This document shows positions 3,205 to 52,099 of a stretch of 64,000 nucleotides of DNA, piece by piece (position 1 is the stretch's first letter; the number at the start of each line of letters is the position of its first letter). The stretch spans positions 41,856,362-41,920,361 of the forward strand of contig CM049307.1 in NCBI GenBank assembly GCA_026874595.1. Reading direction: 5' to 3'. Both the position numbers and the translations under genes were made by a program. The notes under the pieces are model-generated. The model was not told the DNA's origin. It saw only the letters and a program-made list of their open reading frames with translations, and made no database searches. Origin of the DNA: Sipunculus nudus (lineage: Eukaryota > Annelida > Sipuncula > Golfingiida > Sipunculidae).

Positions 3205-4555
3205 CTTTCAGATAATCGAAGCTCTACTGTATGTTTAAAGATGTCACAATCTTACTCCCACCTTGACCCATTTAACCCTATGTAGATGTTCTTTGTAAGG
3301 CAAGGCATTGAAGCAAGATCAGTAATCATGTCACTGATGCACATGCACTTCCTTATATCGTTGCTGATTAAAGAATACATTCTTAGTTATCAGTACTTTA
3401 TCTGATATATGGCCTTCATTGTTGATGTGATGAATCATCAAGACTATTGCATAAAGGTGCTTGTGCTTTTTAGCTCGGCTGACTATAAGTCATCTGAGCT
3501 ATAGTCGTGGTCCTTTGTCCGTCGTCCATCTGTCCGGCCGGCAGTCAGTTTTTAAACCGTTGGACCTACAAATCGAAAATTTTGCATACCATTAGATGTC
3601 CCCAAAATCTCCTACCATACGGAAAAGTAGGTCATTAAGACAGCGTTCCTTCGTGATATTAAGGAAAAACTCTGTTTTCCATAAAAAAGCCATTGTAACA
3701 CTCCAAGACTGCTTTATAACAAAACCACTGATCTGTTTTTGATCATATTTAGTATTCATATTCTTCCATACATTATCTATTTACATACCAAAAATTAGGT
3801 CAGTATTGGGTATTTATTTAAGTTATGGGCCCAAATATAATGCAATTTAAAAATAAAATGTGAAATTATTTACTCACCTAACATGAGAGTTGCTGAAGCT
3901 GGAGACCTTTTTCAGGAATATAACTAAATTCAATCAAGATTCAATTGTTTACCCAAAATTAGATCTGAATTTTGCAAATTTTTCAAGTTATTAGCATAAA
4001 TAAAAAATTAATACCTTAAATTTTGTCCAACTTTGACAATGGCAAGTTTTTTTTCCTATAAGCACTGTTGATTTAATTTTCACAGCATATATACATAAGG
4101 ATTTAATCTATTAAAATCTGAAATTTCAAAGGAATAAATTGAAAAGAGTAGTTTTTATTCAAGTTTTCATACACCATGTCAAGTGTTGTTTACATCTAGC
4201 CTACCTAGTAGTACAGCCTTCACTTGCATTATGTAACCCACCCCAGGCAGCTTGCCTTGGCTCAGCTTGGCCACTACTAGCAGGCTTCCCCTCTGCCCTG
4301 CACTTCCCCCCCCCCCTGATGGTGCATTAACTAGATAAATGTTATCATTTTCTGTATTTTATTTTATTCCTGGCTATGCTGCATTTTAGATTTTGTTTTG
4401 TACCACCAGGGTTACAATGATTAAAGTGCACATTTAATTGTGTCCACAAAGTGGTGTATTGCTATGAAAGTGTGGATGTTCATCAGCTAAGTAATTCCTT
4501 ACTTCAGAACAGTAAAAACATCACCAGGTGTGAAATTGACTATTAATTCCAGTAA

Positions 4556-6265
4556 TAAACTAGAATACGGGTAGTCGACAAGCGACTACTTGTATCCGCC
4601 TAAATCAGAGTGGAACGGGTGAAGTGTTGCATATCAGCATGGATGTCTGCAGCCAAATTGTGTATGTAGGTTGCGCTACCTACCAAAAAATCCAGAAAGC
4701 CGTCCAAGTTGTATACATATGCAAAATTTAAGGCAGATAAGTCAAACCACTATATTGTATATGAGTGATTTTTGCCCTTGGCAGACAAACAGATGGACGC
4801 TGTGCAAAAAAGGGTTGCAGGTGGCGCCACCAGTTTAGCGTATGATAAAGAGCTTTGTGAGAACTATACACATGCAAAATTTTGGCCCAATCGGTCAAAC
4901 GGTTCCCTAGATATGAGCTTGGATGTCTGCAGCGTAAACTTGATTGTAGGTGGCGCCACCTGTCATAAAATCAGAAAAGCTATCCAAGATGTATAAGCAT
5001 GCAGAATTTCAGGTGAATTAGTCAAACCACTGCGGAGATATGAGTGATTTTAACCCAAGGCAGACGAACAGCTGGACACTGTGCAAACATGGTTGCAGGT
5101 GGCGCCACCATTTTTTGTGTATGTTATAAAGCTCTCCAAGGGCTACATTTGTGCAAAAAAATTTTTCTGATCGGTCAAACGGTTCCTGAGATATGAGCTT
5201 GGATGTCTGCAGCGTAAACGTGAATGTAGGTGGCGCCACCTGTCATAAAATCAGAAAAGCTATCCAGGATGTATACGCATGCCAAATTTCAGGTGAATTA
5301 GTCAAGTCACTGCAGAGATATGAGTGATTTTAACCCAAGGCATACGAACAGATTGACACTGTGCAAACATGGTTGCAGGTAGCGGCACTATTTTTGGTGT
5401 ATGTTATAAAGCTCTCCAAGGGCTACATTTGTGCAAAAGAATTTTCCTGATCAGTCAAACGGTTCCCGAGATATGAGCTTGGATGTCTGCAGCGTAAACG
5501 TGAATGTAGGTGGCGCCACCTGTCATAAAATCAGATAAGCTATCCAGGATGTATACGCATGCCAAATTTCAGGTGAATTAGTCAAGTCACTGCAGAGATT
5601 TGAGTGATTTTAACCCAAGGCAGACGAACAGATGGACACTGTGCAAACATGGTTGCAGGTGGCGCCACCATTTTTGGTGTATGTTATAAAGCTCTCCAAG
5701 GGCTACAATTGTGCAAAAGAATTTTCCTGATCGGTCAAACGGTTTCCGAGATATGAGCTTGGATGTCTGCAGCGTAAACGTAAATGTAGGTGGCGCCACC
5801 TGTCATAAAATCAGAAAAGCTATCCAGGATGTTTGCGCATGCCGAATTTCAGGTGAATTAGTCAACTCACTGCAGAGATATGAGTGATTTTAACCCAAGG
5901 CAGACGAACAGATGGACACTGTGCAAACATGGTTGCAGGTGGCGCCAGCATTTTTGGTGTATGTTATAAAGCTCTCCGAGGGCTACATTTGTGTAAAAAA
6001 AATTTCCTGATCGGTCAAACGGTTCCCGAGATATGTGGGTTTATGTGTGGAAACAGACGCACAAACGGACGCAGAGCGCAGAGGAAAGGTCAGAGGTCAA
6101 AACAAAATCGGGGCGCAGCAGTTCACATGTGACCCGAACATAATCCCGGGTTTCGGAAAATTCCGCCCAGCGGTTACGGAGGAGTTCTCCGGACACCTAC
6201 GCGGCGGCGGCGGCGTCCAGCTGAAAACATAGTATCCGCAAAACTCTGTTTTGGCGGATACAATT
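4556..6265 (+). mobile_element. Family 2 element with 280-bp satellite core
   Basis: The 5' end AAACTAGAATACGGGTAGTC contains a hairpin at 4571-4589 (GTAGTCG / CGACTAC), then X = TGTATCCGCC at 4591-4600. The 3' end is a stem-loop at 6232-6261, GTATCCGCAAAAC-tct-GTTTTGGCGGATAC, whose right arm is the reverse complement of X. Between them lies a tandem array followed by ACGGACGC/GCGGCGG-rich sequence. It sits in family 1 copy A. Confidence 0.6.
4620..6035 (+). repeat. Tandem array, about five 280-bp units
   Basis: The phrase ATGAGTGATTTTAACCCAAG recurs near 4761, 5040, 5321, 5600 and 5880, a period of about 280 bp. Each unit is a diverged dimer of about 140-bp halves, each half carrying the palindrome GGTGGCGCCACC (4817, 4951, 5098, 5229, 5509, 5658, 5789; decayed near 5378 and 5938). 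The ORFs reading MAPPTFTFTLQTSKLIS on the other strand come from the repeat. Confidence 0.85.
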
Positions 6266-7295
6266 ATAGCTGAGATTGTAATTGAAAAGATGATTTTATT
6301 TTATCAAATTTACTTAACCTTTTATTTTATTTCGGTGAATAAAATTAAGCATGTACTAAAAACTCCAATATGCAAATCTTTTTAATAGTGATTCAAGGAA
6401 TAATCTTGTAGATGCCATGTTGTGGCATTATTTTCTTTTAAATTCTGTTTAAAAATTTGTGATTTAAAAATAATAAAATATATGTGTATGCATAATATGA
6501 CCCAATATGAGCTACACTTGATATGTAATGATTCCAACTTAGAAATCTAATATTTAAACTTATATTTTCAGTTTTTTTTTATTACAAATTTATAAAACTT
6601 GTAAATAAAAAAAAATGAATCAGATAAAAACTATTAATGGAAAAAGTGGATATGCTAAAAAAATAGGCTTATATATATAAACTTAAATGCATTATTCCCT
6701 TGAAAGTGAAATAAAGGTATTAGTCCATTCTGTCCACTTGCCTGTCCATCTGTAAACTTTTCATATGAATCACAGTATCTCAAAACATTTACTGTTTTTC
6801 TTCATGATAGTCTTGTCAGAGTATTAGTTTGCAACATATATTTAGAACTTTACTATAACCAAGTAGTAGGGCCCCTTTCCTCTTAGCTTCTCATATGCTT
6901 AAATAAATAAATGATCTTAACTATTTTGACCAAATACACAATACTCTGAACTGCTGACCCTTCAGTTTAACCCCCCCCCCCCCTTTCAAAATCCAATGTT
7001 ATTCCATCACAGAATGCCAGGTGTGCCTACAACTGCAATTTAGCTTGGTTCAATTGTAGTATTTTCCCTTGCCTGTCATAATAGAATATTTTGCATATTT
7101 TGCATTGCAAAAATTTCAAACTTAAGCTGAGCGCCGTGACCCATGGGTCCTTCGTTTTCAATAGATACACACACTAAGTGATGAAGATTACTTATCAGAT
7201 GTCTAGTATCCATCTGTTTTAGATTTTTAAAAGAGTTGATCATTCCCATACATGTTGTTAATGCCTTTAATTTAACAATGATTTATTTATTTCAG

Positions 7296-8185: not shown

Positions 8186-8191
8186 AATAAA
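8186..8191 (+). terminator. Polyadenylation signal AATAAA
   Basis: AATAAA lies about 700 bp after the stop at 7492, with no other coding signal between, and is the likely 3' end signal for the exon at 7296-7492. Confidence 0.35.
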
Positions 8192-8947: not shown

Positions 8948-8959
8948 CCAGAGAAAATC

Positions 8960-10330: not shown

Positions 10331-10340
10331 GGGGTGCCAT

Positions 10341-13300
10341 TTTTAGCTCAGCTGACTATAAGTCATCTGAGCTATAGTCGTGGTCCATTGTCCGTCATAC
10401 GTCCGTCCGTTAGACTGGTACGTTTTGAAACCGTTAGACCTACGAATCCAAAATTCAGCATACTGTTATAGACGTCCACAAAATCTCCTACCAAACAGAA
10501 AACTGGGTCAATGCAACTTTGTTCCTTCGAGAAACTAAGGAAAAACTTCAAATTTCCATTAAAAACCTATTATCACACTTTAGGACTGCCTAATATCAAA
10601 ACCACTTAATTTTCTGTTTTCTTTATATTTACCAGAAGTATTCTCCTATGTATTTCTCCTATATATTTCCTAGATACATGCCAGAAATTAAGTCCTTCAA
10701 GTGTAATTTCTTTAAGTTATGGACCCGAACATAATGTACTTTGTAAAAAAATCAGGAAAAAAATTTACTCAATAAACATGAACATATTTAAAATTTTTTT
10801 CCAAGTATATTACTTTGTCTAATTAAGATTCAATTGTATACCCAAAAATAGATCTGAATTTTGTAAATTTTTAACGTTTAAGTATAAAAATAAAATCAGT
10901 ACCCTAGATTTTGCCCAACTTTGACCATGGCGCGTTTTTTTCTGTTAGTACTCTTGATTTAATTTTCACCGGATATAAACGTAAGTATTTAATCTGTTTA
11001 AATCTGAAATTTGAAAATATAAAAGGTTGAACATTTGGCTAGTTCTTGATTTTTTTCTTGAGGATCTATTGTAGTCACTGGCTTTGTCCAGATGCAGGTA
11101 GGCCACCCCTGGTTACTGGGGGAGATCCCCTGCTGGGACAAGTGTTATTCTCATATCAACTCTACCCCCACCTTCACCCCCCTCCCCCACCCCCACTTTC
11201 GCCAAACCTCCCCACCAAGTGTTATGCAGTTGTTATTGTTTGCACTGTATTTCCTTAACTGTAATGGTGTTTCCACTCTAACTTTTCTTGAAAAAATAAT
11301 TTCAGGAGTAATCCAGAAGATGCCATGTTGTGTTGATGTTGCATTTTTAAAGAAATCAATTTTCTGTTAAATGATTTTAACAAATAAAAATATAATTAAA
11401 TTTATAAAATATGAAGCAAATTATGGATAAATAAAGGCACAATTTGAAACTGTGAAATCTGAATCAAGTATTATTTTTATATATTTATTGTTTTGAAACT
11501 TTAAAAGATATGTTTTTGTTGTAAAAAAAATAAATTCATTTGTTCATAATTCATATGATGTGGTGTTATCTGACAATATTGAGATTTATAATGATGCAAT
11601 TTAGAATAATGAATCAACTTTGATATTCAGATATATATGTTATATAATGGAAATGTATAGAAATATAAACTTAAAATTTAAAAAAAATGATGTGATAAAA
11701 AAATTGAGGATGTTATACAAACATTTGTTCATTATTTCCCTGCCTCAGCAGAATTGGAGATTAGGCTTTGTTTGTCCTGTATGTTAGCAGAAGTGTTGTA
11801 AATCCCCCCCCCCTGCTTATTTAATTTAAATAAAAATTTGATCAGAAAAAAATTAGATCTAATCGAAACATAAACTTGCCCCAGGAGAATGGAACATAAA
11901 GTGATCAGCTCTGTCTGTCCATATGTTAAACTTTAAAAGAATTTGATTTAATAAAAAGTTAAGAGATAATTGAAACTTCATATACATGTACATGTTTTAC
12001 CAGGTTTGTTTGTCTACCAGTCTGTCTGTCCTTTTTAACTCAGCTGACTATAAGTCATCTGAGCTACAGTCTTGGTCCATTTTCCGTCGTCCGTCCGTAG
12101 ATGTGGCACGTAAGATCTAGGAATCCAAAATTCGGCATAATGTTATAGATGTCCCCAAGATCTTCTACTAAGCCGAAAGCTGGCTCTTTGCGACTTCGTT
12201 TATTTGAGGAATTAAGGAAAAACCTCCATTTTTATTAAAAACATATTTTCACACTTTAAGACTGCCTAATATCAAAACCACTCATCTGTTTTTCCTCATA
12301 TTTACCATAAATATTCCTCTATATAGTTCCTATGTACATGCCAGAAATCAAGTCTGTTAAGTATAATTTCTTTAAGTTATGGGCCCGAACAAAATGGACT
12401 TTGTAAAAAATCAGGAAAAATATTTACTCACTTAACATGAAAAACTTTTTAACAAGAGTCTATTTTCCCAAGTATATAACTATGTTTAATTAAGATTCAA
12501 TTGTTTACCCAAAATAAGATCTTAATTTTGTAATTTTTTTTAAGTTATTAGCATAAAAATATAATCAGTTCCTTAAATTTTGCCCAACTTTGACCATGGC
12601 ACGTTATTTTCTTGTAAGTACCATTTATTTAATTTTTACAGCTAGTAAACATAAGTATCTAATCTATTTAAATCTGAATTGTTAAAATAAAAGCTTGAAA
12701 ATTAGGCTAGTTATTGCTTTTTTCTTGAGGCTCTATTGTAGTTATTTGCTTGGTCCAGAAGCAGGGTCCAACTCCAGGTCACTGGGAGTCAGCTTTGCCA
12801 GGGTTTCTGATTTGTTATACATGCAGTTACTGGGGGAGATCCCCTGTTGTGACAGGTGTACAGTTATTCTCATATCACCACCCCGGACCCCCCCCCCCCC
12901 CCCCCCGCCAAACCCAACTCACCAAGTGTTATGCAGTAATTGTTGTTTTCACGGTATCTCCTTAATTGTAATGCTGTTTCCACTCCAATATACAAAAACT
13001 TTCCTTGAAAAAGTAATTCAAGGTGTAATCCAGAAGATGCCATGTTGTGTTAATGAAGCATTTTTAAAGAAATCAGTTTTCTTTTAAATGATTTTAACAA
13101 ATATAATTAAACCCATCAGTATGCTTAAATTTATAAAATATGAAGCACATTATGGAAAAATAAATCTAAATCAAGTATTATTTTTAGATATTTATTGCTT
13201 TGCAGATTTAAAAAATATATTTTTGTGGTATAAATTCAATTGAACAAATGTGTAAAATACTGAAATGTCAACAGTTAATCAAAGCCAACTAATGATCATG

Positions 13301-14110
13301 GTAATAGTGCAGATCATTTGTTCACAAACTGCTCACATGCTTCAGTTTCAACATAAGGAAACACATGGTCAGGTCACAAAATATTGCAACAATTTCTTGC
13401 TCATTGAAACAAACCAATCAAATTAACCAACCATGGCCTATATTACCTCTTCCTCTTTATCTCCATTTGATATTATTTTAGATTTTTATCTTCAAGGTCA
13501 ATTTCAGCTGAGCACAGTGACCCATGGGTCCGTAGTTTAAATATTAAGTATGTAATTGTGAATGAACTGTTTTATCCTGTAAGCATTGTTGAATTAAGTA
13601 AAAATCCTATGTATATATATATTAATAATGTAGAGATGTTGTAACTCCCATTATTTCTCTCCCCCCCCCCCCCCACCCACACCACCACCAAGTACTTGGA
13701 CCTGTGGACTGGGAACATAAGTTATATTTCGACTGTATTACATAAAAAAATACATATATATAATAATATATATATATATTCAAAATAATAGATCAAATTG
13801 AACAAATGTGTAAACCTCTGAACTGTCAAGAATTTATCTAAAAGCAAACCAGTGATCATGGAAATAATATACATCTTATGTTCACCAACTGCATAAATGC
13901 TTCAATTTAACATAAGAAATGCATGCATGGTTTGGTCGTGCCCAACATATTATTAGCAACAATTTCTTACTCATCAATACAAACCAATCATGTCTACCAG
14001 CCATGGCCTATATTACCTTTTCCTCTTAAACTTTATCTCCATTTGGTATTATTTTAGATTTTTACCTTCAAGGTCAACTTCAGCTGAGCACAGGGATCCA
14101 TGGGTCCTTG
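10341..14110 (-). mobile_element. Family 1 element, copy B, interrupted by copy C
   Basis: Its - strand 3' hairpin end lies at 10341-10385 (TTTTAGCTCAGCTGACTATA on the + strand, followed by GTCC repeats), and its 5' palindrome end at about 14080-14110 (CAGCTGAGC...GGATCCATGGGTCC). Copy C (12032-13533) lies inside. The block 13795-14110 parallels 13230-13533 of copy C, which is why I treat 13534-14110 as the remainder of B. Confidence 0.55.
12032..13533 (-). mobile_element. Family 1 element, copy C (shortest intact copy)
   Basis: About 1.5 kb with both ends: TTTTTAACTCAGCTGACTAT at 12032 and CAGCTGAGCACAGTGACCCA through TGGGTCC at about 13506-13532. Its body parallels copy B (for example TTTTTTCTTGAGGCTCTATTG at 12718 and TTTTTTTCTTGAGGATCTATTG at 11049) and includes a poly-C tract at 12890-12906. 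With no satellite core, it is the baseline form of the family. Confidence 0.6.
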
Positions 14111-14114
14111 TTAA

Positions 14115-18833: not shown

Positions 18834-19400
18834 CACTGTAAAAACACTTGTGTTGGCCAAACACAAGTTTGTGTTCCCTGCAACACAATACTTGTGTAAT
18901 ATATGAAAGACACAAACTTGTGTTCTGTTAACACAAGTACTTGTGTTAAGTCTAATATACAAGTCTTGTGTTGAAATCACACTTTCTCTGTGTTGTTAGA
19001 ACACAAGTTTTGTGTTAAGCATGGACACATTACTTGTGTTACAGGCACACAAGTGTTGTGTTCCTGACCCAACTGACTTGTGTAGATTTAACAATATACT
19101 TGTGTTATTCTTTCACACATTACTTGTGTTGCAGGAACATAATATTGTGTTCCTCACCCATTCCACTTGTGTAGATTTAACAATCTTGTTGTCTTATTCT
19201 TTCACACATTACTTGTGTTGCAGGAACAAAATATTGTGTTCCTCACCCATCCCACTTGTGTTGATTTAACAATCTACATGTTTTTAATTCACACATTACT
19301 TGGGTTACAGTAACAAAAGGTTGGTGTTGTTAACACATACCGTTTGTATCGATATAATAACCTGCTTGTTTTATTCATTCACACACTATAGTTGATTTGT
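18834..19400. repeat. Subterminal repeat block of the CACTA-like element
   Basis: Short CACTTGTGTT/AACACAAGT motifs crowd 18834-19020. From 19023 a unit of 87-91 bp starting ACACATTACTTGTGTT repeats at 19023, 19114, 19204 and 19291, decaying near 19380. The right end (about 22155-22292) has similar motifs. Such clusters are usually transposase-binding sites. Confidence 0.75.
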
Positions 19401-19993
19401 GGATATAAAAATGATGTGCTCCTCGCCCAATACTTTGGATTGACAATTTACCATTATCTTTGTAAGGGAGTAATACGGACACACTGTATTTTCTTTACAT
19501 ATAACATGTAACAACACATGTTTCTGAACAATACATGTGTGATCTAGGCATATATATTTCAAAATGTAGTACTTTTCAATTACTGTTTTCCTTTGCTAAC
19601 ATTCAAGGAAACGACATTCAATAGGCTTGCCAAATAACCTTAAAACTTGACATAGTCATTTTTCTCAAATAAAATGTATATGACCAAGTGTACAATTGAT
19701 GTATAATAAAAATAGGGTCCGGAGCAAAACTGAATGGAAACTTTCAACCAAATTAACGATCATCAGAATCACTCAGAACACAAAAGTTAATGACTTTATA
19801 ATTTATTAAATATTGGCTTATACTACAGGCCAGCATCTTCCAATTTTTCCTATACATCACAATAATGTCCACGGACAGATAAAAGAATTGTTGAGAAAAT
19901 GTAAAACTCAAGAAAACGACATCGGTGTACGTATAATTTAAAGGCATGCAGATGAAAAGAGAAATACATATATATGGAACATCTTTATCATGA

Positions 19994-20077
19994 ATTACTA
20001 AGTAGGTGACACTGGGACCTCTGATCGCTTATATTCTTATAAGCGATCAGAGGTCCCAGTGTCACATACTTAGTAAT
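19994..20077. repeat. Near-perfect 40-bp hairpin inside the transposon
   Basis: The left arm (19994-20033) and right arm (20038-20077) are reverse complements at 39 of 40 positions around a 4-nt loop (TTCT). The core of the arm is GACACTGGGACCTCTGATCG. It begins about 40 bp beyond the stop codon of the - strand exon, so it would lie in that transcript's 3' UTR. Confidence 0.9.
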
Positions 20078-20117
20078 AATTTAACTAAAATGTAGAAAAG
20101 AACGAGCATCTTGAAAG

Positions 20118-20459
20118 TTATGTGTAAACTGACGTAAGTGCACTTTCACAGTACAAACTGCACAGTAGGATACCAACAGAGATTTTCACCCCATCAATGT
20201 TGTTAATATATTGTTCAATAAATCCATAGAATGGCTGAAGATATTTTGGAAATTCCATGTTTAATACATATATCGATTTAAACAAAATGTCCACTGCCAT
20301 CGCTATTGTACTGGGTTGTACAACCACAGCCATGTCCTCCAGCATAACGAAATAGCTAGGTAGAGGGCTTATTCCGTAAGATGTATACGACTGTGTTCTC
20401 TTGAGTGTTGTATTCTTCTGTTTCAGTTCCTCCACAGCTAACTCCAGCGAGGTCCCAGG
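20118..20459 (-). CDS. Terminal exon of a transposon-borne uncharacterised protein
   Basis: On the - strand an acceptor (TATAATTTCAG) precedes 20459 and the frame is open for 113 codons to the stop at 20118. It starts PGTSLELAVEELKQ and continues with an E/K-rich helix, the segment MAVVVQPSTIAMAVDILFKS, then IYVLNMEFPKYLQPFYGFIE. The pattern of a TI-AVD-LF-IYVLN-YP-FI helix resembles the C-terminal domain of multicopy uncharacterised proteins seen near repeats in fish and invertebrate genomes; I cannot name the family. Upstream exons were not identified. It lies inside the CACTA-like element and may be cargo or an accessory gene of the element. Confidence 0.5.
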   Translation of the reverse strand, partial: PGTSLELAVEELKQKNTTLKRTQSYTSYGISPLPSYFVMLEDMAVVVQPSTIAMAVDILFKSIYVLNMEFPKYLQPFYGFIEQYINNIDGVKISVGILLCSLYCESALTSVYT

Positions 20460-21707
20460 CTGAAATTATACAGGGTGCATTAATTAAATATAATGAGTTT
20501 CTGCAAGGGTTCAGGGCTGCAAAATAATTTTATGAAAAATATAAAAAAAAATCTACATTAATTGCTCTTAATTTTCATGAAAATGACAACACTGTTAATT
20601 CGCTGAACAGGTCATAACATAACGGATAATTTTTTATTCTATTTTTTAATTTACATGAATGAAATGTCAGAGCTGCAGGAACTCAAATTCGGAGAATTAC
20701 TACTGGAAATCTGTAGTCTGGGGGGGGGGGGAGGGTGTCCCCGGGGAACCAACCAATTTTTGTTTGGCCTTATAACATCCCATCATACACAAGGCTAACA
20801 ACAACGTCGTATACGATATAATAATATAGGTTATTCAGTTGCGCGTACATATGTGTGTTTGTCAAGCTTGGGTCTAAATGCAAATGTATTAGCATTTGAA
20901 AATGCGCATTTGCAGTTAAATGGAGAAGGGAAACATTTTATCTTCAAATATGAATGCAGGCAATTATGGAATGCAATCTCAGAATAATAAGCTTCACTAA
21001 GAACCAAAAAAATAATAATGGTTTCAGCAGCTCTATATTCGAACAGCAAAACATTACTTTATACACCTAACTCTAGGTATCAGGTGATAATATAGATGTA
21101 AAGTGCAGATGCATTTTAATTGTATGTGCATTTGATAAATCTTTACATTTGCATTGGCAATAAATACTATATCTAGTAGCATTTGCATTTGATTAATTTG
21201 ATACATTTTAATTTCAATTAAAATGTACTTATTTGTTTGCTTTTGGACCCAACCCTAGCGTGTGTTAAAGTCCATGTGTATCATTACAAATTACATTTAA
21301 TGAAATCACAACCAATATTTTCAGTCAGTTTCAGTTAGAATGAATAAAAATAAGTTTATATGTATATACTTACAAATAAGTCTTCTCATAGAAGCTTTCT
21401 CTAATGCTGCGAGCTGTTTTTCCTAATGCCTGGTTCCTCTAATGATGCTTGTCGCTGCTGCTGTCCAAATGGCCGACTTCTGCATGCATGAATTCAAAAT
21501 GCATCACATGTTGGCGGGAATCGGACCATAACAAAAGCAGGCACAGGCTTTGACCAGCACTTGGCCGTGCTGATATGATGTATGTAGGTCACCGCCAGCC
21601 ACACACTGCCATTAAAAGCTCATTAATTTAACATCTGGCATTGGCAGGTCCAGATTTAACATTGATGGGGTAGGGGGTGGACATGGGCATGGCGTCTACG
21701 GGTCAGG

Positions 21708-21708
<1 letters not shown>

Positions 21709-21761
<53 letters not shown>
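21709..21761. repeat. (AT)n microsatellite
   Basis: About 52 bp of AT dinucleotides inside the CACTA-like transposon. Confidence 0.9.
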
Positions 21762-21765
<4 letters not shown>

Positions 21766-23370: not shown

Positions 23371-23376
23371 GGGTTT

Positions 23377-24990: not shown

Positions 24991-25178
24991 GTTGCCAACA
25001 GACGTCGCTTGTGTAGTGGGAAAGTTCTATTACGAACGAGGTAGAAGCTTTATGATGCTCCAAACTGTACTATATTTGCAAACCGCATGTTGATATAGTC
25101 TTCGTGGAAAGTCTATTAAACATAGTTATTTTTCATAATTTAGAATATGTGACTATTACACTTTATTTTTATTTGCAG

Positions 25179-30645: not shown

Positions 30646-30711
<66 letters not shown>

Positions 30712-37330: not shown

Positions 37331-38329
37331 CGCCTTTGTCAAAGATCGGAAATGTCGTTCGAGATGCATAATATGTATGTTTCCATGTATACGTGTGTTT
37401 ATAGTTGGGCAGATGAGTACAGATTAATGTAGTACAGATAAATGTAGATTCAGATAAAATACAGTATATGCAACCATAAAAATGGCAGGACACACAAAAT
37501 TTGATCAAATCATACCATGCATACTAATGGAAATACTCTTTTCTTCCGAGTACAAGAGCCACATTCAAAGGCCACTGTATTTCCATTGCCATGACATACA
37601 TACTGATATCAGAAGTGACGACATAGGGGGCAATATCAACCCAGTATTAGTTTTATCCTGGAAAAATTGTGTTGTACGTCTGCATGTTTCTGAATTACAA
37701 CTTGAAGGAGCAAATTCATGAAATCATCATATAACGCTAAGGAAGAGATCAAATTTGGACCAGTTGTAGTCATTTTTGGTAGATCCAAAGGGTTTATTTA
37801 GTGTATCCGTTTTATATGTAGCAACATTAATAATATAGGTTAGACAGTCGCACACATTTTTAAACCCTTTGTGAAACTTTTCTTTTTTTATTTTTTTTAA
37901 TGACTATATCATTGTACAAATGGTGCGCTGCATATGGGCTCTAAATTATAATGTTTTCACTGGCAAAGTCTATTTGTTCATATTATTAATAAGCAACTAC
38001 ATATGGCGCGCAGCGTTCCTGTTTCAATATAGAAAATTATGATTTATTTCTAGAGGTCTATCTATGTATAAATTGTCAAGACACACCGGTTAACCCCCCG
38101 GACTGAAAAAATATATATATTTGGGCGAAGATCGAGAAAAGAAAGAGTTCAATTATAAAAAAAGTGTGAAAAAATTGTATCCTTTTGATAAAAACAAGCT
38201 TTAATTTATAACTTATAAATTAATATTTTCTTTGAGCTTCGGGCAATTATTAGAATCGGTTTACTTTTAATAATGTTACTGAAGGTTCAAATGATGCACA
38301 CTTATGTTTTTATAAATATTAAAACGATA

Positions 38330-40402
38330 CCTACAGGCCTAAGCGAACCTGTGCAATGGTATATACACCAGGTATAATACTTCAATGCTGGACCATTACT
38401 TTTCAAGTACATGTGTAACATGTACATGAACGATGCAAGTTCTAAAGATTTTGAACAAGAACCAATTACACAAACAACACTGCTGAAATACAGGCATGGT
38501 TGCACACAATACAAAAACGATTGAAAGTGGCCACACCAATCTTGTATTCGACAACGCTATCCAATATGTATAAATATGCACAATTTCAGGCTGATATATC
38601 AAATCACTCCTGAGAAATAAGCGGGCAAATACACTGTGCAAAAATCATTATAGGTGGCGACACCAGTATTATGAACGAGAAAGCCATCAAAGATGCATAG
38701 ACAGGTTAAAATATCAGGCCAATTCATCAAACTTTTCTTGAGTCCAGTGCACTGGGCTAACCATGCTCTAGTCACTGGCTCTAGTCACTGCACTGAGTGA
38801 ACTCTTGACCTGCATCTGGCTGCACTGACACTCTTGACCTGTACCTGGCTGCACTGAGTGAACTCTTGACCAGTTACATAATCTGACACAGTTGGCAGTC
38901 TGCCTAAGCTTAGATAGATCCAGACTGTGTTTTGGCGTGTAGCAAAATTTGAAATATTTGGCAGTCTGCCAAGCTTTTTATAGATACAGACTCAATCTTT
39001 GGCTATAGGTAAATTGGTTTACACATACTGAAAGACGTTGACTACAATGCTATTTTTTAAGCTTGCATATTCATAAAAAAAATTTTTATCAACATGTTTA
39101 GAATAATAAAAGATGTAGTCCTGTCATTGTTAAAGTCCAATAACTCTGCCAACAATAATTTAAATAAACTTGAACAAAAGCCTCCTAAGAATCATTTTGT
39201 GCAAAGTTACAGAAGTTGAAAAACCAGTTTTGCAGAAGAAGACTTTTGCAGCCCTCATTTTGAAATAGGCTTACTAATGGCCGCAAGACCAAACTACAGC
39301 TATCTATGACTCTGCCAAAAATCAACAAACCCAAACTATTCTTTTACAATTGAAAGAACCCTACCCTAGGATAGTACTAGTGAAAAATTAAACAATTCAG
39401 GTTGACAGTTTCACCATAAAATAATTCTAAACTGAAAGAGGCTAAAATTATGAGTGTTTTGTCAGTAATAAGCAGGTTGATGTAGGCTGCATAAAAAAAA
39501 GTGCAATTTCAAATATATGACATGTGACCAACATTTGTACAAATCTTGGTGATGCTGGCTCCTGTCTTTTCTGAGATTAGTATGTGTCTGCTTACTTGGT
39601 CAAATGACTAAGTTCAAATTCCTCGGCCAAAATTCATCAAACCTAAACCATTTGACCAAACTTGAGAGAGCTTATCTTTGGGATTATTTATGTGAAATAC
39701 TGAACAATTTGGCTGAATGATTTCGGAGAAAAAGATTTTCAATTTTTTTTAGCATTTTCCTCCTAAAATGTAAGTTAATGCAGGTGCCGCTACAAAACGC
39801 TCAATCTTACATTTGATATGCGAAAGATTTTGGCATAAAGTTAGAGGATTCTAGTTCCTGTCATTCCTGAGAAATTATGGGTTAATGTACTGATGACGGA
39901 TGACTATCGTACAGAAAAGGTTGATGCAGGTGGTGCCACTAATACATCAAATTCATATATGAGTCATGTGACCAACATTTGTATAAAATTTGAAGATAGC
40001 TCCAGCTGTTTCTGACGTGGTAAATTTCGTATCCTTTTTTGGCCAAATGACATAGTTCAGCTTCCTGCAACTCGGCTAAAATTCACCAAACTGGAACCAT
40101 TCGAACAAACTTGAGATGTGTGGTTTCAGGGATTATTTTTGTTATATTGGACAATTTGGCTGAACAGTTTCAGAGAAGATTTTTAAAGTTTGTTAAGGTT
40201 TTTCCTGGTAAAATCTAAGTAAATGCAGATATCAAAAACAATAAGTTCAATCCGATCATGTTGTCATGTGACAGATTTTTCCACAAAAATTTGATGCTGT
40301 CAGCTCTAACGGTGTTTGAGATAGCATATAGGTTAACGTACGGTGGACGGACAAATTAGCAATGATAAAGACGAGATGGGGAGTTCTGTGAATTTGCTAA
40401 AT
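38330..40402 (+). mobile_element. Family 5 element, copy F
   Basis: The 5' region has CTACAGGCCTAAGCGAACCT with X = AGCGAACCTGTG (38342-38353). The 3' region has GGTGGACGGACAAA (about 40342) and a decayed X' (CTGTGAATTTGCTAAAT, about 40386-40402). The body has irregular repeats such as CATGTGACCAACATTTGTA (39522, 39967) and AACCATT.GA.CAAACTTGAG. It is collinear with copy G. Confidence 0.5.
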
Positions 40403-40885: not shown

Positions 40886-43800
40886 CTTGTAAAAAAATAA
40901 AGGTAAAAGGTACAATTCTATACTGCACTCAAATATTTTAATGTGTGATGTCAGACGTGAACGTATAATTGAGAAATTAGACATGTAGTTCTGCCATGAT
41001 CTAATTTAAATACTTTATGAGCACTTTCTTCTTGTTTCAATAGTAGACCCTACATGCATGCCGTTTGCATTCGTAATATTATTAACACACAATCTTCACA
41101 AATACTGGTATACATATATGGACAGCGGGGGTGCGGAAACATGATATCGCAAGAAAGTTAGTATTAGCTGCATTAATTATACGGTGTACGTATCCAGGAT
41201 CCTACACAGCTTAGCGTGGGGAGAGAGCTGTAGGGATAAGTTAGTATATATAAATAATTATTCCAGGGTGATACGGTTTTTTTTGTATTATTATGGTATT
41301 TGTCCTCTTATGTATATTGTTTTTACTGAAAATAAATACTGTCATACAATATGTTATAATTACATATAAACATAATTACTCATAGACCTACTGATTACAT
41401 GTTATAAATAACCGCCCTGGTTGATCAATTTGATCATACAATATCGGGGCAATAAGTATAAGCAGAATATGAATAAATGCATATGGTATTATCCTAAAAG
41501 TATCACATCTCAGGATGGCATGGCATTATACAACCACATGTATAATAATGATATCACACCTGATTGCGTACAATGTCAGGACTATTTTTTGAGGATTTAA
41601 CACAACACGACATATATTGTTACATGTTTTGCACATACAGTGGAACCCCACAATTACGCGGCCACCTAGTGGACACCCAAAAGTGGTCGTAAATTTTAGG
41701 TGGTCTTATTTGTTAAATTCTAAGTTGCCTGGATCATATATTCGGGACCAGGAACATTGTCGTATTTGTGGGGTGGTCGAAATGATGGGCTGCTTCCAAT
41801 GTACACGTGCAATTTATTCCAGGCCCAAAGTCTGTTTGCGTATTTTAGATTTATGTAACAATCTTAAACTAAACCAACAATTTTCTTCAATTAATCCAGC
41901 TTGCAGAATACAATAAAACATCCAATTTTACCATATCATCATAACAAAGATTTAATTGCAGAACTTTACAAAGAGCAAGATCAAATGATCAAATCTTACA
42001 TCATTGAAAATCCAACACATATACCCAGATTTGGTGATCAAAACAAAGAAAAGACCACATGGTCAAATGCTTACACTACTGGCCACGAATCCGGCAAATG
42101 CTTTCCCTTTTTTGTGATAAGGGGTACTTGATTAGCAGAAGCATATCAGGGGGGGGGCCAGGGAGTCCATATATATACCCCCCATTTTCAGCCACAACAA
42201 CCATTTCTTAAGGGTTTCAGACCGATTTGCAGCATGGAGCCCCCCCCCCCCCCCAACACACACACTTTTTCGAGACTTCGGGACCCCCCCACTTTTTCCA
42301 GACTTTGGGACCTTTTTTATAGGCTTTGTCATTAGTCCTCCTCTCCTGGGTTAGACCTGGCCCCCCCCCCCCCCCTTTCCTAAATCCTAGTAGAGAAGGT
42401 AAGCTACAGCGTACAGAACATCAGATACAAAATAAAATAGTGTCAATAAAAAAAAACCCCGAGATATACAGTAGTCTTTTAATGTAATGAACACTTTTCT
42501 TGCTGATATGGTGGTTCAGTGAAAAAGGTGAGAAACTGAATGTAATATTTTAAGTATGAATAAACCAGTGACTAATACATTACATACAAATTTATTTTAA
42601 AATATTGCTTGAAAATCATTTGACTAAATGCTAAAATATGTAAAATTAAACCAAAAAATAAATCAAAAGGATCAGACAATGAATAAAAAAATATGAAATT
42701 GACCTAAATGTGACATGGCATGGTACAAGAGTTTTACATACAGCACAATGGCGCCACCTATTGGTGATTTGGTAATGACAGATTTTGGTGTATGTTGAAA
42801 AATGAACCACCTTAAACAAAGATTTTTTTTTTATAATAAAACAATAAAATCTAGGAATTAACAAAATAGATTGCTGATTCATGAAATCTTCAACTAAAAA
42901 AATATACCTAAATCACATATGAACACATTTCATATAAACAATCATGACAAAAATATTGCAAATTAATTAAAGGCCAATAATGTTACATGCTCAGGCAATA
43001 AAAATATAAATATATAAACTGAAAGATGTTTGGTTTATACACATGAAAGAAAAATGTAATTAACTTTTGATCTGAAAGATACTATATAAATTTCATGCAG
43101 TATATAATGCTTCACACATACATACACATTTATATATAATTTAAATACAGTGAAACCTCGATGTGTCGAAGTCGAAGGCACCCTCAGAAAACTTCAACAC
43201 ATCCGAGGTTCGACACAAGCAGGTTTTATTTGGTAATAATTTAACTTGATTTGTCCGGAATATCAAGTCTGTAACTTCAACATAAACGGGGTATTCGACT
43301 TAAGCGAGTTAGACACAACGAGGTTTCACTGTATATACCAATAGACAGCAACTGGTGTTAACATTGATAACTGCCTTTCTACCATACTGACCCATACAAA
43401 ATAAACTTTCAGAAGTACACAGTCTGACCTCTGTGAAAAAAAAAGGTGAGCATTAGAGCAGAAAGGAGTATACTCAAATTTGAGTACTTCTGAATTGCTG
43501 ATTCAGTCCCAGAGTAGTATTTAAGTTGACCTAAATTTTGTTTAGAAATGATACATTTCCAAACAAATAAAACATGGAGTGCTCACCATGTTTTCAAAGT
43601 GCATCCAGGCTATATTCACCTTGAAAACAGGATTCATCTTAGAATCAACAACATGTATTGTTAAACCTTCATGTGTGTGCACAACATATGACTAACAGAC
43701 GTTTGTTACAGAAAAACATTGTATAGCTCATCTCTATGACATCTATGTGTTCCCATATGATAATCCTTGGTATTCTATAGTCATGGAAATTATTCTACAT

Positions 43801-44935: not shown

Positions 44936-44939
44936 CTGA

Positions 44940-46185: not shown

Positions 46186-46767
46186 TGCATAACAAGGCCT
46201 ACAGGCCTTATGCAAACCTGTGCAAAGTTTGGGAGTATGAACGTTTATTTTTAAAATTTAATACTGATACTCTCATGTACAGCATAACTACCTCAGTCAT
46301 TATGATCTCAGCCAAATGGACATTTCTGACCTGCACGTTTCGGACTTGGACATTATAAAACTAGAATGTATCAGTCAGGATATTTCTGATATGTTCTTTT
46401 TGCCAGGGAGGGATATTGGAACAGATGAACAGACAATTTGGCAGCATGGTTTCGGAGAAGAACATTATAAAATGTTTTTAAGCATTTTCCCTATAAAATC
46501 TATGAACAAGTTCCTCTTTTAGCCTTGGTATTGAGTCACACCTACTCATGCATCCTGGCAATGGAGGCTCAGCTTTTCCCCAGGTCAAGGGTACCTAATG
46601 TGCCACATGTAACCGCACCACTGGCTCTAACAGGCTGAAAGTTACCACTGGCTCTTACAGACTGAAACTTGACCTGTTGCAAATTTGAAATGGTTGGCAG
46701 TCTGCCAAAGTTATTTAAAGATCAAGAGCCTAACTTGACCTTTTGTGAAATATGACACAGTTGGCAG

Positions 46768-46818
46768 GATCTAGACATCTAGGCAGTGTGTCTAGACACA
46801 TCGTCTAGACGTCTAGAC
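46768..46818. repeat. Cluster of TCTAGA palindromes
   Basis: TCTAGA occurs at 46770, 46791, 46804 and 46812 within 48 bp, including the longer palindromes TGTGTCTAGACACA and CGTCTAGACG. Confidence 0.8.
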
Positions 46819-48309
46819 TGTATCTGAACACCAGGCAGAGCCAGGTCAGTCGCCATGGTGATGTCTGGACTGCACCTGAGTGCACTGATTGACCTCTTGA
46901 CTCTACATGTTGAAACTTGCCATGCTGCCAATTTTGTTTTCAAATACTGAAAGCCTTTTTTCAATTGGCTACACTGCTTTTTTAATGCTGCATTTACCCA
47001 ATCTATTCTAATAAAACTGACAAACAATACTATAGAACAATTCTTTAAACCAATCAGCTTAACAGTTTCTTGACAAGGGACCTATTGGTCACGGCGCTCA
47101 GCTGTTATATATGATAAATAAATATTATTTGGAAATAAGGCACATGCTGGTTTTGTGTGGTAATAAATAAAAGCTATATTATGAGTTGTTGGTGTTTAGC
47201 TTATGTATGATTTTGATAGTATCTTTTGAGACAGGTAAAAGGATTGATTTCATTTATTTTACTGACAAATGGAGTGCTATTGTCACACAGATTTTGACTT
47301 GGCCATATAACTTATAAGCAGCACATAAAATAATATAAGAGTTTAACTATTTATTAAAATTTAATAACAAATATTGTGCCAAACATAATTTTTATTAAAA
47401 TAAATAAAAGAATCAGGATTTTTTAAAAATAAAATATAACTGAAATGATTATTAAAATAATATTATAGAATATATTCATGAATGCATTCATGAATACATT
47501 TTGAAAGTATTTGCACTGGTATTCAAATACTTTCATTTTTACTTATATTCCCATTCTTATGCAAGAAATTTTATAATGATTCATATTCGTATTCAAATAC
47601 ATATACATATTATATACATATTATATATATATATAATCCAAACAATGATGTTGAGAATCCAGAATATACAAAATTCAAAATTTAAATAATGATCATAAGT
47701 ACCTGGTTTTATGGCTTTTATTTATATTAATAAAAAATAAATGTAATATATTCACTCTGGACTACTTTCACATCAATATACACACTAGACACAGTAGGAA
47801 CTAGATTAATATTATCAACTGTATCTTTGTCTATCATTAATTTCCTTCACATGATCCCTAATGATTAGTAATGAATAATATGATTTATTTATGTCATCAT
47901 AAAAAAATTGAACTGAAAAATACCATAGGTGACTGCATGGTGTTATTTGGAATACTTGACATTCTATCCATCCATACAAGATTCTTACATCATCAGTAAC
48001 TGCAAGTTAATTTCCTGTTACTCAACAACTAACAAATTCCTTTTCTATTAATTTTTCTTTAATTTGTTATTAAAAACCAATAAAAATTTATTAATTTATA
48101 GTTTCTTGTTATGTTGTTGGTCAAAACAACTACTAGATAAGTTGGGTTGGACACCTGGATCAACTGTGGCTGGCCATAAGCTGCCTGGCTGCCCCAGTGT
48201 ATGCCTCCCTCAAGCGTGCATAATTTGCTGAAAGGTCAATAAGGTCAACATACAGGTGACTGAAGAGGGGCTTTGGAGAGCCTGGTTCTGACATGGTCTC
48301 ATAAAAACA

Positions 48310-49658
48310 TTAACTAGAATATCAGCAAAAGCTGACAAAAGCCCTCAGCCAAAAGAACAGTGTTTAGAGGTGGTAACAGTAACAAGTACTAAATATCTGT
48401 TCTCACATGGTTGATATCTGTACATATCTCAGTTATAAATTTAAAATGGAGAGGTATGTACCATGATTCATAACAATCCATCCAATGGTTCCTGAGAAAT
48501 AAGCTTCTAAATGTTTTTTCTATAATCAGCTCTAAAACATAGAAAAATAGGTCAAGGTCACCCATCTCCGAACTTGACCGAGATTTTGTCAATATACATC
48601 TTCTCCGAAAAAATAACATTCTTACGGTGAATCCTTTTCGAGATATCCCGCTCACAAGCCCAAAGTTGAAAAATCCAATAAAAATTCATTAAAAATAAGA
48701 AATTGTAGGTGGCGCCACCAAACTTGTATAGCAGGTACAAACTATCAGTCCCAATAACCATAGTAAGTTTTGTGAAAATCCACCAAATGGTTCCTGAGTA
48801 ATAAGCATCTAAGTGTTTTTTCTATAATCATTTCTAAAACGTAGAAAAATAGGTCAAGGTCACCCACCTTCGAACTTGACCGAGACTTTGTCAATATACA
48901 TCTTCTCCGAAAAAATAAAATTCTTACGGTGAATCCTTTTCGAGATATCCCGCTCACAAGCCCAAAGTTGAAAAATCCGATAAAAATTCATTAAAAATCA
49001 GATATTGTAGGTGGCGCCACCAAACTTGTATTGCAGGTACAAACTATCAGTCCAAATAACCATAGTAAGTTTTGTGAAAATCCACCAAATGGTTCCTGAG
49101 TAATAAGCATCTAAGTGTTTTTTTCTATAATCAGCTCTAAAACGTAGAAAAATAGGTCAAGGTCACCCACCTTCGAACTTGACCGAGATTTTGTCAATAT
49201 ACATCTTCTCCGAAAAAATAAAATTCTTACAGTGAATCCTTTTCGAGATATCCCGCTCACAAGCCCAAAGTTGAAAAATCCGATAAAAATTCATTAAAAA
49301 TCAGAAATTGTAGGTGGCGCCACCAAACTTGTATAGCAAGTACAGACTATCAGTCCCAATAACCATAGTAAGTTTTGTGAAAATCCACCAAATGGTTCCT
49401 GAGTAATAAGCATCTAAGTGTTTTTCTATAATCAGCTCTAAAATGTAGAAAAATAGGTCAAGGTCACCCATCTTCGAACTTGACCAAGATTTTGTCGATA
49501 TACATCTTTACCGAGGAAATAAAATTCTGACGGTGAATCCTTTTCAAGATATCCCACTCACAAGGTAAAAGTTAACAGACGCCGGACGGACGGACAGACG
49601 GACGGACAGCTTGGGTGACGACAATAGCCCATCAGCCTAAGGGCTGAGGGCTAATAAA
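48310..49658 (+). mobile_element. Family 4 element with 300-bp satellite core
   Basis: The 5' end TTAACTAGAATATCAGCAAA has the hairpin TCAGC-aaaa-GCTGA and X = AGCCCTCAGCC (48340-48350). The 3' end has GGACGGACGGACAGACGGAC (about 49585), then the stem-loop AGCCCATCAGCC-taa-GGGCTGAGGGCT (49626-49652) and AATAAAA. The right arm contains the reverse complement of X. Confidence 0.65.
48390..49575 (+). repeat. Tandem array, four units of about 302 bp
   Basis: GGTGGCGCCACC recurs at 48708, 49010 and 49313, and AAATAGGTCAAGGTCACCCA recurs once per unit. The last unit is truncated before the next palindrome. Units are very similar, so the array is young. Confidence 0.9.
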
Positions 49659-52099
49659 AGCTACAATTTTTGGCCATTTTCTTTCAGCTTTTTAGTTTAG
49701 AAATCCTTATGTATGCATGATATGAAAATTATATCAACAGTTCTCACAGGAAACAAACGTGTCATGGTCAAAGTTGGGCAAAATTTAAGGTACTAATTTT
49801 ATATTTATACTAATAACTTATAAAATTTGAAAAATTCATAAATAATTTTGGGTATTCAATTGAATCTTGATTAAATAATGTTCATCCCTGACAAAAAATC
49901 TCTAGCTTCAGCAATCCCTTTTGTTAAGGGAGTAAATAAATTTCTTGATTTTTACAAAGTGCATTATGTTTGGGCCCATAACTTAAAACAATTACACAAT
50001 ACTGACATCATTTATGGCATGTGCATAGCAAATGAATAGAAAAATATGTATATCATATATGATCAAAGTCAGATCAGTGGTTTTGATATTAGGCAGTCTT
50101 GTGTAACAATGGGGTTTTAATGGAAAAATAAAGTTTTTCATTAATATCTAAAAGTCCTAGTGATCAAATTCTTAGCATGGTATGGGATATTGGAGACATC
50201 TAACTGTATGTCAAATTTTAGGAACTGAGAGCTGAAGCTGGGGAGCTGAGCTCTAGCAAACTGCATTACACTAGCTTGATGTAAATAATATGTGACATGG
50301 TGCTTGAAAACTTGAATAAAATCTACAGTTTTTGATCAATTGGTTTCAAATTTTTAGTGTTAAGAGATGAAATGCTAACAAGTCCATACTGTGAAAATTA
50401 AATCCACAGCAGTTACAGGAGAAAAAGTGCCCTGGTCAAAGTTGGGCAAAATTTAAGGTACCAATTTTTTATTTTTGCTAATATTTTAAAATATTTAAAA
50501 GATTTTGATCTAATTTTGGGTATACAATTTAATTTTTAATAATCAAAGTTATATTACTGGAAAAAAGTCCTTAGCTTTAACATGTTTTGTGTTAAGTGAT
50601 CAAATATCTTTCCTGATTTTTTACAAAATGCATTATGTTTGGGCACATAACTTTTTTAAATTATATAATATAGACCTAATTTCTGGCATGTACATTGGAA
50701 TTATATACAGGAATATTTATGGTAAATATGAGGAAAAACAGATGAGTGGTTTTAATATTAGGCAGTCCTGAAGTGTGAAAATAGGTTTTTAATAAAAAAT
50801 TGAGGTTTTCCCTTAATTTCTCAAAGGAACAAAGGCACAAAGACCCAGTTTTCAGCTTGGTAGGAGATCTTGGGGACATCTAACATTATGCCAAATTTTT
50901 GATTCCTAGCTCTTATGGTTTCAAAACGTGCCAGTTTAACGGACGGACAGACGGACAGCCAACGGACAAAGGACCATGACTATAGCTCAGATGACTTATA
51001 GTCAGCTGAGCTAAAAAAAAACGTGTATAAGCTAGAAGAGTCTAAACTTACATTTTTGTTTGTAAAAAACATATCAATGTAGGTGGCGCCACCAACACCT
51101 CAACTTCAGATATGACTCATGTGACAAACATTGGTATGAAATTTGGTGATGACATTCTGAGATTTTAAGTTTAGTATGCTTTTTTACACAGATGACTAAG
51201 TTAAACCTCCTGTAACTCAGCCAAAAATCAGCGAACTGGAGCCATTTAAACAAATTTGCGAGAGATTGTTCTAGGGATCATTTCTGTGAAATACTGGACA
51301 ATTTGGCTGGAAAGTTCTGGAGAAGAAGATTTTTATATCTTTTTTATATTTTCCTGTATAAAATATAAGTGGTTTTTGAGAAGGAGATCTTTGCAGCCAC
51401 TGAGCAGAAATGGGCTGCTATAACATTTGACTATTTTCAGCTTCCCATAACACGGCCAAAAGTCATTGAACAGAGACCATTTGAACAAACTTAAAAAAGC
51501 ACTACCCAAGGAGCATTTCCATGCAATATTAAACAATTTGGCTTTACCTTTCAGATAAGAAGTTTTTTGTAGCCCTCTGCATGCTTTGGGCACCGTTGAC
51601 CCCAGTACAAAAAGACCAATGCAGGTGGCCCAACCAGTACCTCAATTTCAGAAATGACTCAAGTGACCAACATTAACATAAAATTTGATGATGATAGCTC
51701 CATCCATTTTTGAGATTGTAATTTTACCATGCAAATGACTAAGTTCAACTTCCTGTAACTTGGTAAAAAATCACCGCCCTGGAACCATTCGAACAAACTT
51801 TAGAGAGATTGCTCCAGGGAACATTTCTGTGAAATATTGGACAATTTGGCTGGACATTTTCAGAGAAGAAGATTTTTAAAGGTTTTTAAGCTTTTTCTCT
51901 ATAAAATCTTATTAATGCAGATACCAAATAATAAACTCTAGGGCACCAAGTTTCACGTATGACTAATTCTTACATATAATTTGGAGCTGCTAGCTTCAAT
52001 GGTTTCTAACTTACAGCTATGGACGGTGGACAGCCAACCTGGGACGGTGGACAGAGGATACCGTGCCATCACATAAGCTCACAGGTTCGCTAAAAAAAT

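Follow-up and report, generated by a model that had tools for sequence, protein, structure and literature searches.

Ten elements in a 64-kb window of the Sipunculus nudus genome as probable HINEs sharing one structural plan

Introduction

A 64-kb stretch of the Sipunculus nudus genome (C2:41856362-41920361 of 1.43 Gb), referred to here as the window and read for the most part, holds ten elements of five sequence families: five copies of family 1 (A to E), single members of families 2, 3 and 4 (f2, f3 and f4) and two copies of family 5 (F and G). The question that this locus raises is what these elements are, and why families with different end motifs should be laid out alike. In the original prediction, made from the letters of the window alone, each element carried a motif X towards one end and its complement X' towards the other; the families were described as unrelated, and the constant arrangement was taken as a sign that structure rather than sequence is recognised.

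We conclude, with a probability of about 0.92, that the ten elements are HINEs, non-autonomous and non-coding rolling-circle relatives of Helentrons (Helitron2 class), with a Rep/helicase partner that we infer. The HINE/Helentron identity, already proposed for them, was borne out by the ends, by some empty sites and by the copy number. An independent sample of 300 kb of chromosome C1, in pieces labelled L017-L038 etc., was analysed together with the window, giving 364 kb in all.

A common plan with family-specific ends

In the orientation used here, which is the published one for HINEs and Helentrons and the opposite of that first assigned, the elements consist of a T-run, a 5' subterminal inverted repeat (subTIR) with an imperfect inverted repeat (IR), a GTCC-type microsatellite, a body frequently built of tandem units, a 3' subTIR and a palindrome. 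What had been called a 3' stem-loop is the Helentron 5' end, and the TAAA(A) that had been read as a 3' flank is the T-run at that end. One plan for all ten elements holds in outline, but neither its orientation nor the unrelatedness of the families does. The five X motifs and their complements are all present where they had been placed. Satellites do occur in families 2, 3 and 4, but family 1 can also carry tandem units (L026, L034 and copy E), and the microsatellite, previously given as GGAC-type, is degenerate in f2. No TC, the canonical 5' start of Helitron1, is present at the 5' ends, which have the T-run and subTIR instead. As in HINEs, there are subTIRs of at least 11 bp, the 5' one beside the T-run and the 3' one internal, and a palindrome lies between the 3' subTIR and the 3' end in all five families. 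Coding capacity is absent, the longest stop-to-stop frame inside any element being 133 aa (among frames of at least 90 aa), and a Pfam scan at E 0.01 gave no match for 10 of the 39 frames of at least 90 aa, four of them within elements.

Pairing of X with X' was assessed by comparing the best inverted match between the 5' and 3' sides of each element with that in 1000 dinucleotide shuffles. Six of the ten elements pair beyond shuffled sequence on their own, the number of shuffles that did as well being 1 for B, 12 for C, 9 for E, 0 for f2, 1 for f3 and 0 for f4, but G (84), A (882), D (537) and F (893) do not. Copies A and D are identified through their homology to the other family 1 copies. 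In family 5 exact pairing exists only between copies, X of F at 38342 with X' of G at 52080; F is without an X of its own on the 5' side, and the score of G is 8 against its own 3' end and 12 against that of F. The subTIRs are 11 bp and exact in both f3 and f4, match at 14 of 15 positions in f2 and span 12 bp across F and G, and they are shorter in family 1 (10 bp in B, 9 bp in C and E, degenerate in A and D). In a matrix of scores, f2, f3 and f4 reach 11-12 with their own ends and 4-7 in all their cross-family comparisons; family 1 copies score 5-10 among themselves, and scores between families are 4-8. X/X' pairing is thus a real, family-specific sequence identity, since the subTIR is matched between both ends of f2, f3 and f4 and not with other families.

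Copy number and further families

A scan of the window for a hairpin plus X', with criteria set after the elements had been seen, made 12 registrations at four places (B, f2, f3 and f4), compared with three registrations, in two of 20 shuffled windows; A, C, D, E, F and G were not recovered by it. A second scan, of the 364 kb with the window included, required a T-rich flank, a hairpin, X' within 6.5 kb and CT[A/T]GTT, and gave 23 hits against 3, 0, 1, 2, 0 and 2 in six shuffled sets. Fifteen of the hits were judged to be HINE ends. Families 1, 2 and 3 were recovered elsewhere, and two new families came to light, f6 at about 10.18 Mb on C1 and f7 in L018; there were no hits in the 50 kb starting at 40 Mb. 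Genome-wide, exact 5' hairpins number 21,893 for family 1, 5,347 for f2 and 2,607 for f3, with 0 for each reversed-pattern control. Candidate places for f4 number 1,025 (5') and 1,334 (3'), of which 40 each were scored. The partner that belongs to the definition of HINEs would be an autonomous Helentron (Rep, helicase, endonuclease) with matching ends. Scoring 150 of 195 candidates for the Rep domain Helitron_like_N gave 143 matches genome-wide, in open frames of up to 2,426 aa.

These counts bear on whether the common plan is an over-reading of AT-rich sequence full of hairpins and T-runs. The failure of A, D and F in the shuffle test, the weak result for G, the post hoc criteria and the noise-like share of the scan hits (8/23) favour it; the zero counts in the reversed controls beside thousands of exact copies of f1, f2 and f3, the recovery of these families and two new ones elsewhere, and the junction-spanning empty sites described below count against it. 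This explanation is refuted for f1-f4 and is given next to no credence overall.

Four similar 5' ends of family 7 follow one another in L018:6323-6536 at intervals of about 70 bp, and a single 3' end lies 5 kb further on. The arrangement is reminiscent of composite elements from Fusarium that were described as having several 5' termini (PMC5148889).

The 3' terminus

A shared 3' terminus, CT[A/T]GTT, which had been missed, is located just outside the palindrome at 21 of 29 ends of families 1-5 (counted by eye). It is present at 10/15 ends of family 1 (1/5 in the window and 9/10 in the sample), 6/8 of f2, 2/2 of f3, 1/1 of f4 and 2/3 of f5; f6 and f7 have it too, but the scan that found them demanded it. 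The form CTAG is seen in f3, f4, f6, f7, two ends like that of copy D (f1-D) and part of f2, and CTTG, which does not fit the CTRR that follows a hairpin in canonical Helitrons, in f5, part of f2 and the remaining family 1 ends that have the hexamer. A 7-mer is common to three of five tails, and a shared word of at least this length arose in 6 of 3000 random sets, the tails having been picked after the 7-mer was seen. A lax test for CTAGTT after a hairpin was weak (4/14 versus 461/4000). A division into two separate classes of 3' end, CTAGTT and TTGTT, was dropped, as further copies show CT[A/T]GTT in families 1, 2 and 5 too.

Shape and sequence of the 5' hairpins

The 5' hairpins of families 1, 2 and 3 share one geometry on unrelated arms: 8 bp are followed by a one-base defect, a further 5 bp and a loop of 3 nt. 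The hairpin of f4 has two 6-bp stem segments separated by a bulge, and a 4-nt loop; that of f6 is 5-1-6-3, and that of f7 has 14 bp and no defect. In f1-f4 the hairpins fold with z -3.6 to -8.0, and 0-1 of 200 shuffles did as well. An IR or palindrome beside the 5' subTIR, as in HINEs, is found in f1-f4, f6 and f7 and is lacking in family 5. In f1-f4 the defect sits in the IR, and at that position the 3' subTIR continues to follow the sequence of the 5' subTIR. Genome-wide, the f2 hairpin has 5,347 exact copies in the bulged form and 5 in the unbulged form, a conservation which could be plain descent. Among 14 family 1 hairpins (10 distinct), 93.1% of cells pair and none of the 13 pairs has changed on both sides, so that no compensatory change is seen within family 1. 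Hairpin scans of viral contigs gave no match. Separately, 13 matches to TGTAGGTGGCGCCACC appear fortuitous; one of these loci is matched by the window, over 37 bp.

The claim that structure rather than sequence is recognised is half supported by these results: the geometry is the same in f1-f3 on unrelated arms, with f4 and f6 close to it, but the subTIR is family-specific, compensatory change is absent from family 1, and a plain sequence, CT[A/T]GTT, is common to families 1-5. On a rival explanation one enzyme would mobilise all families by reading structure alone, that is hairpin shape and the CTWG/TT junction, with subTIR copies that need match only each other. Such an enzyme would account for the 8-1-5-3 geometry, for a defect confined to the IR arm while the 3' subTIR copies through it, for the excess of bulged f2 hairpins and for the common terminus. 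We consider it somewhat unlikely, as the 14 family 1 hairpins lack compensatory change, descent may explain the bulge, and f7 does without a bulge and f5 without a hairpin.

Insertion sites

The joined flanks of 17 insertions were compared with the 364 kb at E 1e-3. Matches that span the junction, and so represent paralogous empty sites, were obtained for five: f2 (two matches), f3 (20) and f4 of the window, and the f2 and f1-D elements in L037. The filled f4 site reads GTAGCTTTTATT-element-TTAATG and its empty copy GTAGCTTTTATTAATG. In f4, in f2 (compared with L017) and in the L037 f1-D element, the filled site equals the empty site plus the element and TT. No target duplication was found beyond this ambiguous TT, and the targets are T-rich (five insertions), consistent with the insertion of HINEs at TT without target-site modification. 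Several ends could be set by empty sites; the 3' ends of A, C and D and the ends of F are approximate. The boundaries of scored matches for the f4 5', f4 3' and f3 3' ends (40 each) are mostly near the proposed ends. Junction matches for copy E of family 1 (E 0.05) and f7 (E 0.001, low complexity) did not pass the joined-flank comparison and were not counted.

The extra TT at the three readable filled sites, together with inverted repeats at both ends, could also be produced by cut-and-paste miniature inverted-repeat transposable elements (MITEs) with a 2-bp TT duplication, the class in which DINE-1 was once filed. This is highly unlikely here. MITEs have terminal inverted repeats and a target-site duplication, whereas the 3' repeat of these elements is subterminal and is followed by a palindrome and mostly CTWG, the two ends are asymmetric, the TT is ambiguous, and there are Rep-domain matches in the genome. 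The same TT ambiguity has been described for DINE-1 (PMC2374699) and the HINEs of mites (PMC4067079).

Several observations weigh against the elements being HINEs. Eight of the 29 ends are without CT[A/T]GTT, including four of the five family 1 ends in the window; the 3' palindromes give weak folds (z -1.1 to -2.9, and 0.44 in family 1); and no significant 5' hairpin was found in family 5 (G z 0.15, F none). For twelve of the 17 insertions nothing in the 364 kb matched across the junction at E 1e-3, and the f2 match with the highest score is broken by a long gap immediately to the left of the junction. Three of 39 other f4 5' matches begin far outside the element, and the lists of the best 40 boundaries favour copies that extend furthest by chance. 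Eight of the 23 scan hits look like noise, and the Rep/helicase partner that shares an X is one that we infer.

Possible mechanism

If the elements are HINEs, a Rep/helicase made elsewhere would bind the family-specific subTIR beside the 5' hairpin, nick at the T-run and peel off one strand. The 3' subTIR, the palindrome and the CTWG/TT junction would serve as terminator, and the transferred strand would join a TT target. The subTIR sequence would assign an element to its partner; hairpin geometry and the 3' terminus would be the features on which enzymes of one class act in all families. Slippage or recombination during replication may generate the tandem units, and parts may be exchanged between families. 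One animal genome would then contain at least seven HINE families with different subTIRs, of which families 1-5 have one 3' terminus. Five of the seven families have nearly one hairpin design, so that the parts of Helentron ends read as sequence and those read as shape become testable.

Links between families

The families are not unrelated, as had been assumed: f2 and f5 are homologous over 104 bp (blastn, E 7e-9), CT[A/T]GTT is common to families 1-5, and a 12-bp palindrome, GGTGGCGCCACC, is shared by f2, f4, f5 and f1-D. The palindrome recurs, exact or with one mismatch, at the spacing of the tandem units, which is 336 bp in f1-D, 129/149 bp in f2 and 302 bp in f4, and there are fewer, partly mutated copies in f5 and f6. 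In the window it is found eight times in the half-units of f2 (4820-5949; seven exact, one with one mismatch), three times in f4 (48708-49324; all exact, one per unit) and once in G (51082-51093), with a one-mismatch form in F at 38653-38664. The 364 kb contain 41 exact copies (11 in the window, 30 in the 10-Mb block and 0 in the other 100 kb), and the next commonest four-letter 12-bp palindrome has 7. It was not found in the compared units of f3 and main family 1, nor in L018 (f7). Once the palindrome and its five flanking bases to either side had been taken out, at least 18 of 200 shuffles did as well for 18 of 21 unit pairs; a weak residual likeness was seen for f1D/f5G (3/200), f2a/f5F (4) and f2a/f6 (6).

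Genome-wide, TGYAGGTGGCGCCACC (the TGYA form) has 62,948 copies and its reversed control 0, and many of the places listed show the f2 spacing. AGGTGGCGCCACC was not found in a text search of the literature. That the palindrome might be a unit-junction site, as described for phBglII400 (PMC5139131), was unsupported by eye in f4. A 12-bp palindrome in the tandem units of five mostly dissimilar families is possibly new. Shared by satellites that for the most part do not align, it provides a specific candidate for a site involved in the hitherto unexplained dispersal of satellites by these elements.

Strand agreement between neighbouring copies

Strand was compared at the first 100 places for each pattern on C1, which extend to 2.9 Mb for f1, 17 Mb for f2 and 31 Mb for f3. 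Exact f2 and f3 hairpins lie on the same strand in 26/28 pairs within 20 kb (19/21 beyond 6 Mb), in 51/60 within 50 kb (36/45 beyond 6 Mb) and in 98/177 at 200-400 kb, and none of 99 sign rotations reached the f2-f3 agreement. With one vote per cluster the agreement is 16/18 at 20-kb linkage (p 0.0007; beyond 6 Mb 11/13, p 0.011) and 18/22 at 50-kb linkage (p 0.002; beyond 6 Mb 12/16, p 0.038). From the start of C1 to 1.15 Mb, minus copies make up 57/58 of f1, 14/14 of f2 and 7/7 of f3 among these places; from 1.23 to 1.47 Mb all are plus (nine f1, four f2 and one f3). The nearest f1 is on the same strand as f2 in 19/22 cases below 3 Mb. Within the chromosome the agreement extends to about 50 kb, and at the start of C1 to a megabase; f2, f3 and f4 of the window are all minus.

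A tentative reading, held at less than even odds, is that insertion strand is set by the region of the chromosome and not by the family, with neighbours within about 50 kb co-oriented because the transferred strand would enter the lagging-strand template at host forks, as that of the bacterial single-strand transposon IS200/IS605 does. Helraiser is described as transferring its plus strand only (PMC5876387), and the orientation of IS200/IS605 as following replication (PMC5371812), which together make fork-guided insertion plausible. A replication-fork link for Helitrons was not found in a limited literature search.

Other results speak against strand coherence. In the window the older family 1 copies A-D are on the plus strand, and f2 and f3 next to them on the minus strand. 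Beyond 6 Mb, f2 alone shows no clustering of runs (36 runs, mean 35.9) and f3 alone weak clustering (36 runs, mean 41.5, 2591/20000), and f2-f2 pairs at 20-50 kb agree in 9/16. The 100 TGYAGGTGGCGCCACC places listed are all plus, with none in C1 1.15-1.49 Mb, where four plus exact f2 hairpins should bring minus-strand TGYAGGTGGCGCCACC motifs; none is listed there on either strand. As a control, an oriented non-HINE repeat (23376-23576 and 61096-61319 of the window), represented by a 22-mer with 1,759 exact copies genome-wide, is random in strand overall (56 runs, mean 51); within 50 kb it agrees with f2/f3 in 4/7 pairs and with itself in 5/6, which are too few pairs for a comparison at that range.

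Pairs of exact copies about 0.24 kb apart in the first megabase of C1 suggest duplication there. Regional T/A asymmetry, duplication blocks and a preferred orientation inside older HINEs are possible other causes of the agreement. Strand agreement between families is therefore preliminary and possibly new, and duplication may contribute to it. If it withstood controls and were guided by forks, HINEs would record fork direction in an animal genome, in thousands of datable insertions.

The ten elements and other features of the window

Half of the elements are nested in another: f2 in A, C in B, f3 in D, f4 in E, and E in G. Copy A of family 1 (3467-7154, plus) matches B, C and E by blastn and is interrupted by f2; its 3' end is approximate and its hairpin has z -4.8. 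Copy B (10340-14112, plus) has the 3' end CCATGGGTCCTTGTT and a hairpin of -10.4 kcal/mol (z -5.6), and contains copy C (12032-13535, plus), whose 3' end is approximate. Copy D (31783-34240, plus), which represents the D subfamily, is interrupted by f3; its 5' end is aligned and its 3' end approximate, and relatives are present in L030, L037 and L038 of the C1 sample. Copy E (47074-51017, minus) has two tandem body units and the 3' end CTTGTC, is interrupted by f4 and lies inside G. That E might be a composite with two 5' ends (E1/E2) was ruled out, as other family 1 copies (L026, L034) likewise repeat body units of about 0.6-0.7 kb.

In the window the members of families 2-5 are all minus. 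In f2 (4560-6266) the satellite is of about 280 bp in two half-units, the 3' end is ..ATTCTAG and the hairpin has z -8.0; f3 (32036-33930) has a 180 bp satellite, the 3' end ..ACATCTAG and z -4.8; and f4 (48314-49654) has a 302 bp satellite, the 3' end ..ATTCTAG and z -5.8. Copy F of family 5 (38325-40400) keeps its 3' subTIR and part of the palindrome and has lost the 5' subTIR and hairpin, and its ends are approximate. Copy G (46193-52098), with E and f4 inside, has the 5' subTIR AGCGAACCTGTG and the 3' end GGCCTTGTT. Relatives of G are represented by a 5' end at L032:3995 and by the 3' end of another copy at L031:2250.

Exons at 25160-35080 presumably belong to a gene resembling those for cyclic-nucleotide-binding-domain proteins, which would put D and f3 inside one intron. 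A long element at 18838-22297, recognised by eye, has inverted ends of CACTGTAAAAACACTTGTGTT, is flanked on either side by TA and contains ACACAAG repeats; blastn gave a partial inverted match. Fold-back inverted repeats at 26884-27099, 19994-20077 and 52327-52436 are 78-93% identical to their own complement. A MITE-like sequence of about 180 bp at 43152-43332 has the ends ACAGTGAAACCTCG and CGAGGTTTCACTGT (by eye). At 55093-58859 there are adjoining diverged copies of one sequence (55093-55802 and 57348-57948) and a shorter piece at 58800.

Comparison with known elements

The elements of the window are further HINEs of an already published plan, which accounts from Drosophila (PMC2374699), mites (PMC4067079), Lepidoptera (PMC4344730) and oyster (PMC7492417) give wholly or largely. 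That so diverse a set is notable in itself, as was first thought, carries little weight beside the 11 such elements described from one oyster (PMC7492417) and the seven families from one mite (PMC4067079). Cg_HINE of Crassostrea gigas, as described, is similar in its 5' subTIR of 11-12 bp, complementary IR, left-flank microsatellite (GTCY/GTCC in several), satellite array, 3' subTIR, palindrome and insertion at TT, with 11 elements in one genome (PMC7492417). Two segments common to related monomers are described for it; the shared CTWG 3' end and the palindrome common to different satellites set the present elements apart from that description (PMC7492417).

Other Helitron-like elements of C. 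gigas with subTIRs are described with a 3' CTAG accompanied by a hairpin and subTIRs (257/751), as here, and with a 5' IR in a third of those 257, and have been suggested to be Helitron/Helentron intermediates (PMC7992393). According to that account they start with TC and only one has a microsatellite, whereas the present elements lack TC and have both the microsatellite and satellites. Hel-2 of Lepidoptera is alike in its 5' IR, subTIRs, (CTGT)n after the 5' subTIR, 3' hairpin and CTAG, but differs in its 5' TC and A/T target, and a satellite array is unmentioned in its description (PMC4344730). The proto-Helentron of Phytophthora has the ends 5' TT and 3' CTAG, but is about 14 kb long, carries a Rep/helicase gene and is described as inserting between A and T (PMC4067079).

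DINE-1 resembles these elements in several respects (PMC2374699): its 13-bp subTIRs vary from one species to the next, its IR is partial or interrupted, a GTCY microsatellite is present, the central repeats of different species are non-homologous, and it has a 3' stem-loop and a TT target. Its authors had already argued that structure is kept while sequence changes (PMC2374699). In DINE-1 that variation is described mainly between species (PMC2374699), whereas in S. nudus it is seen among the families of one genome.

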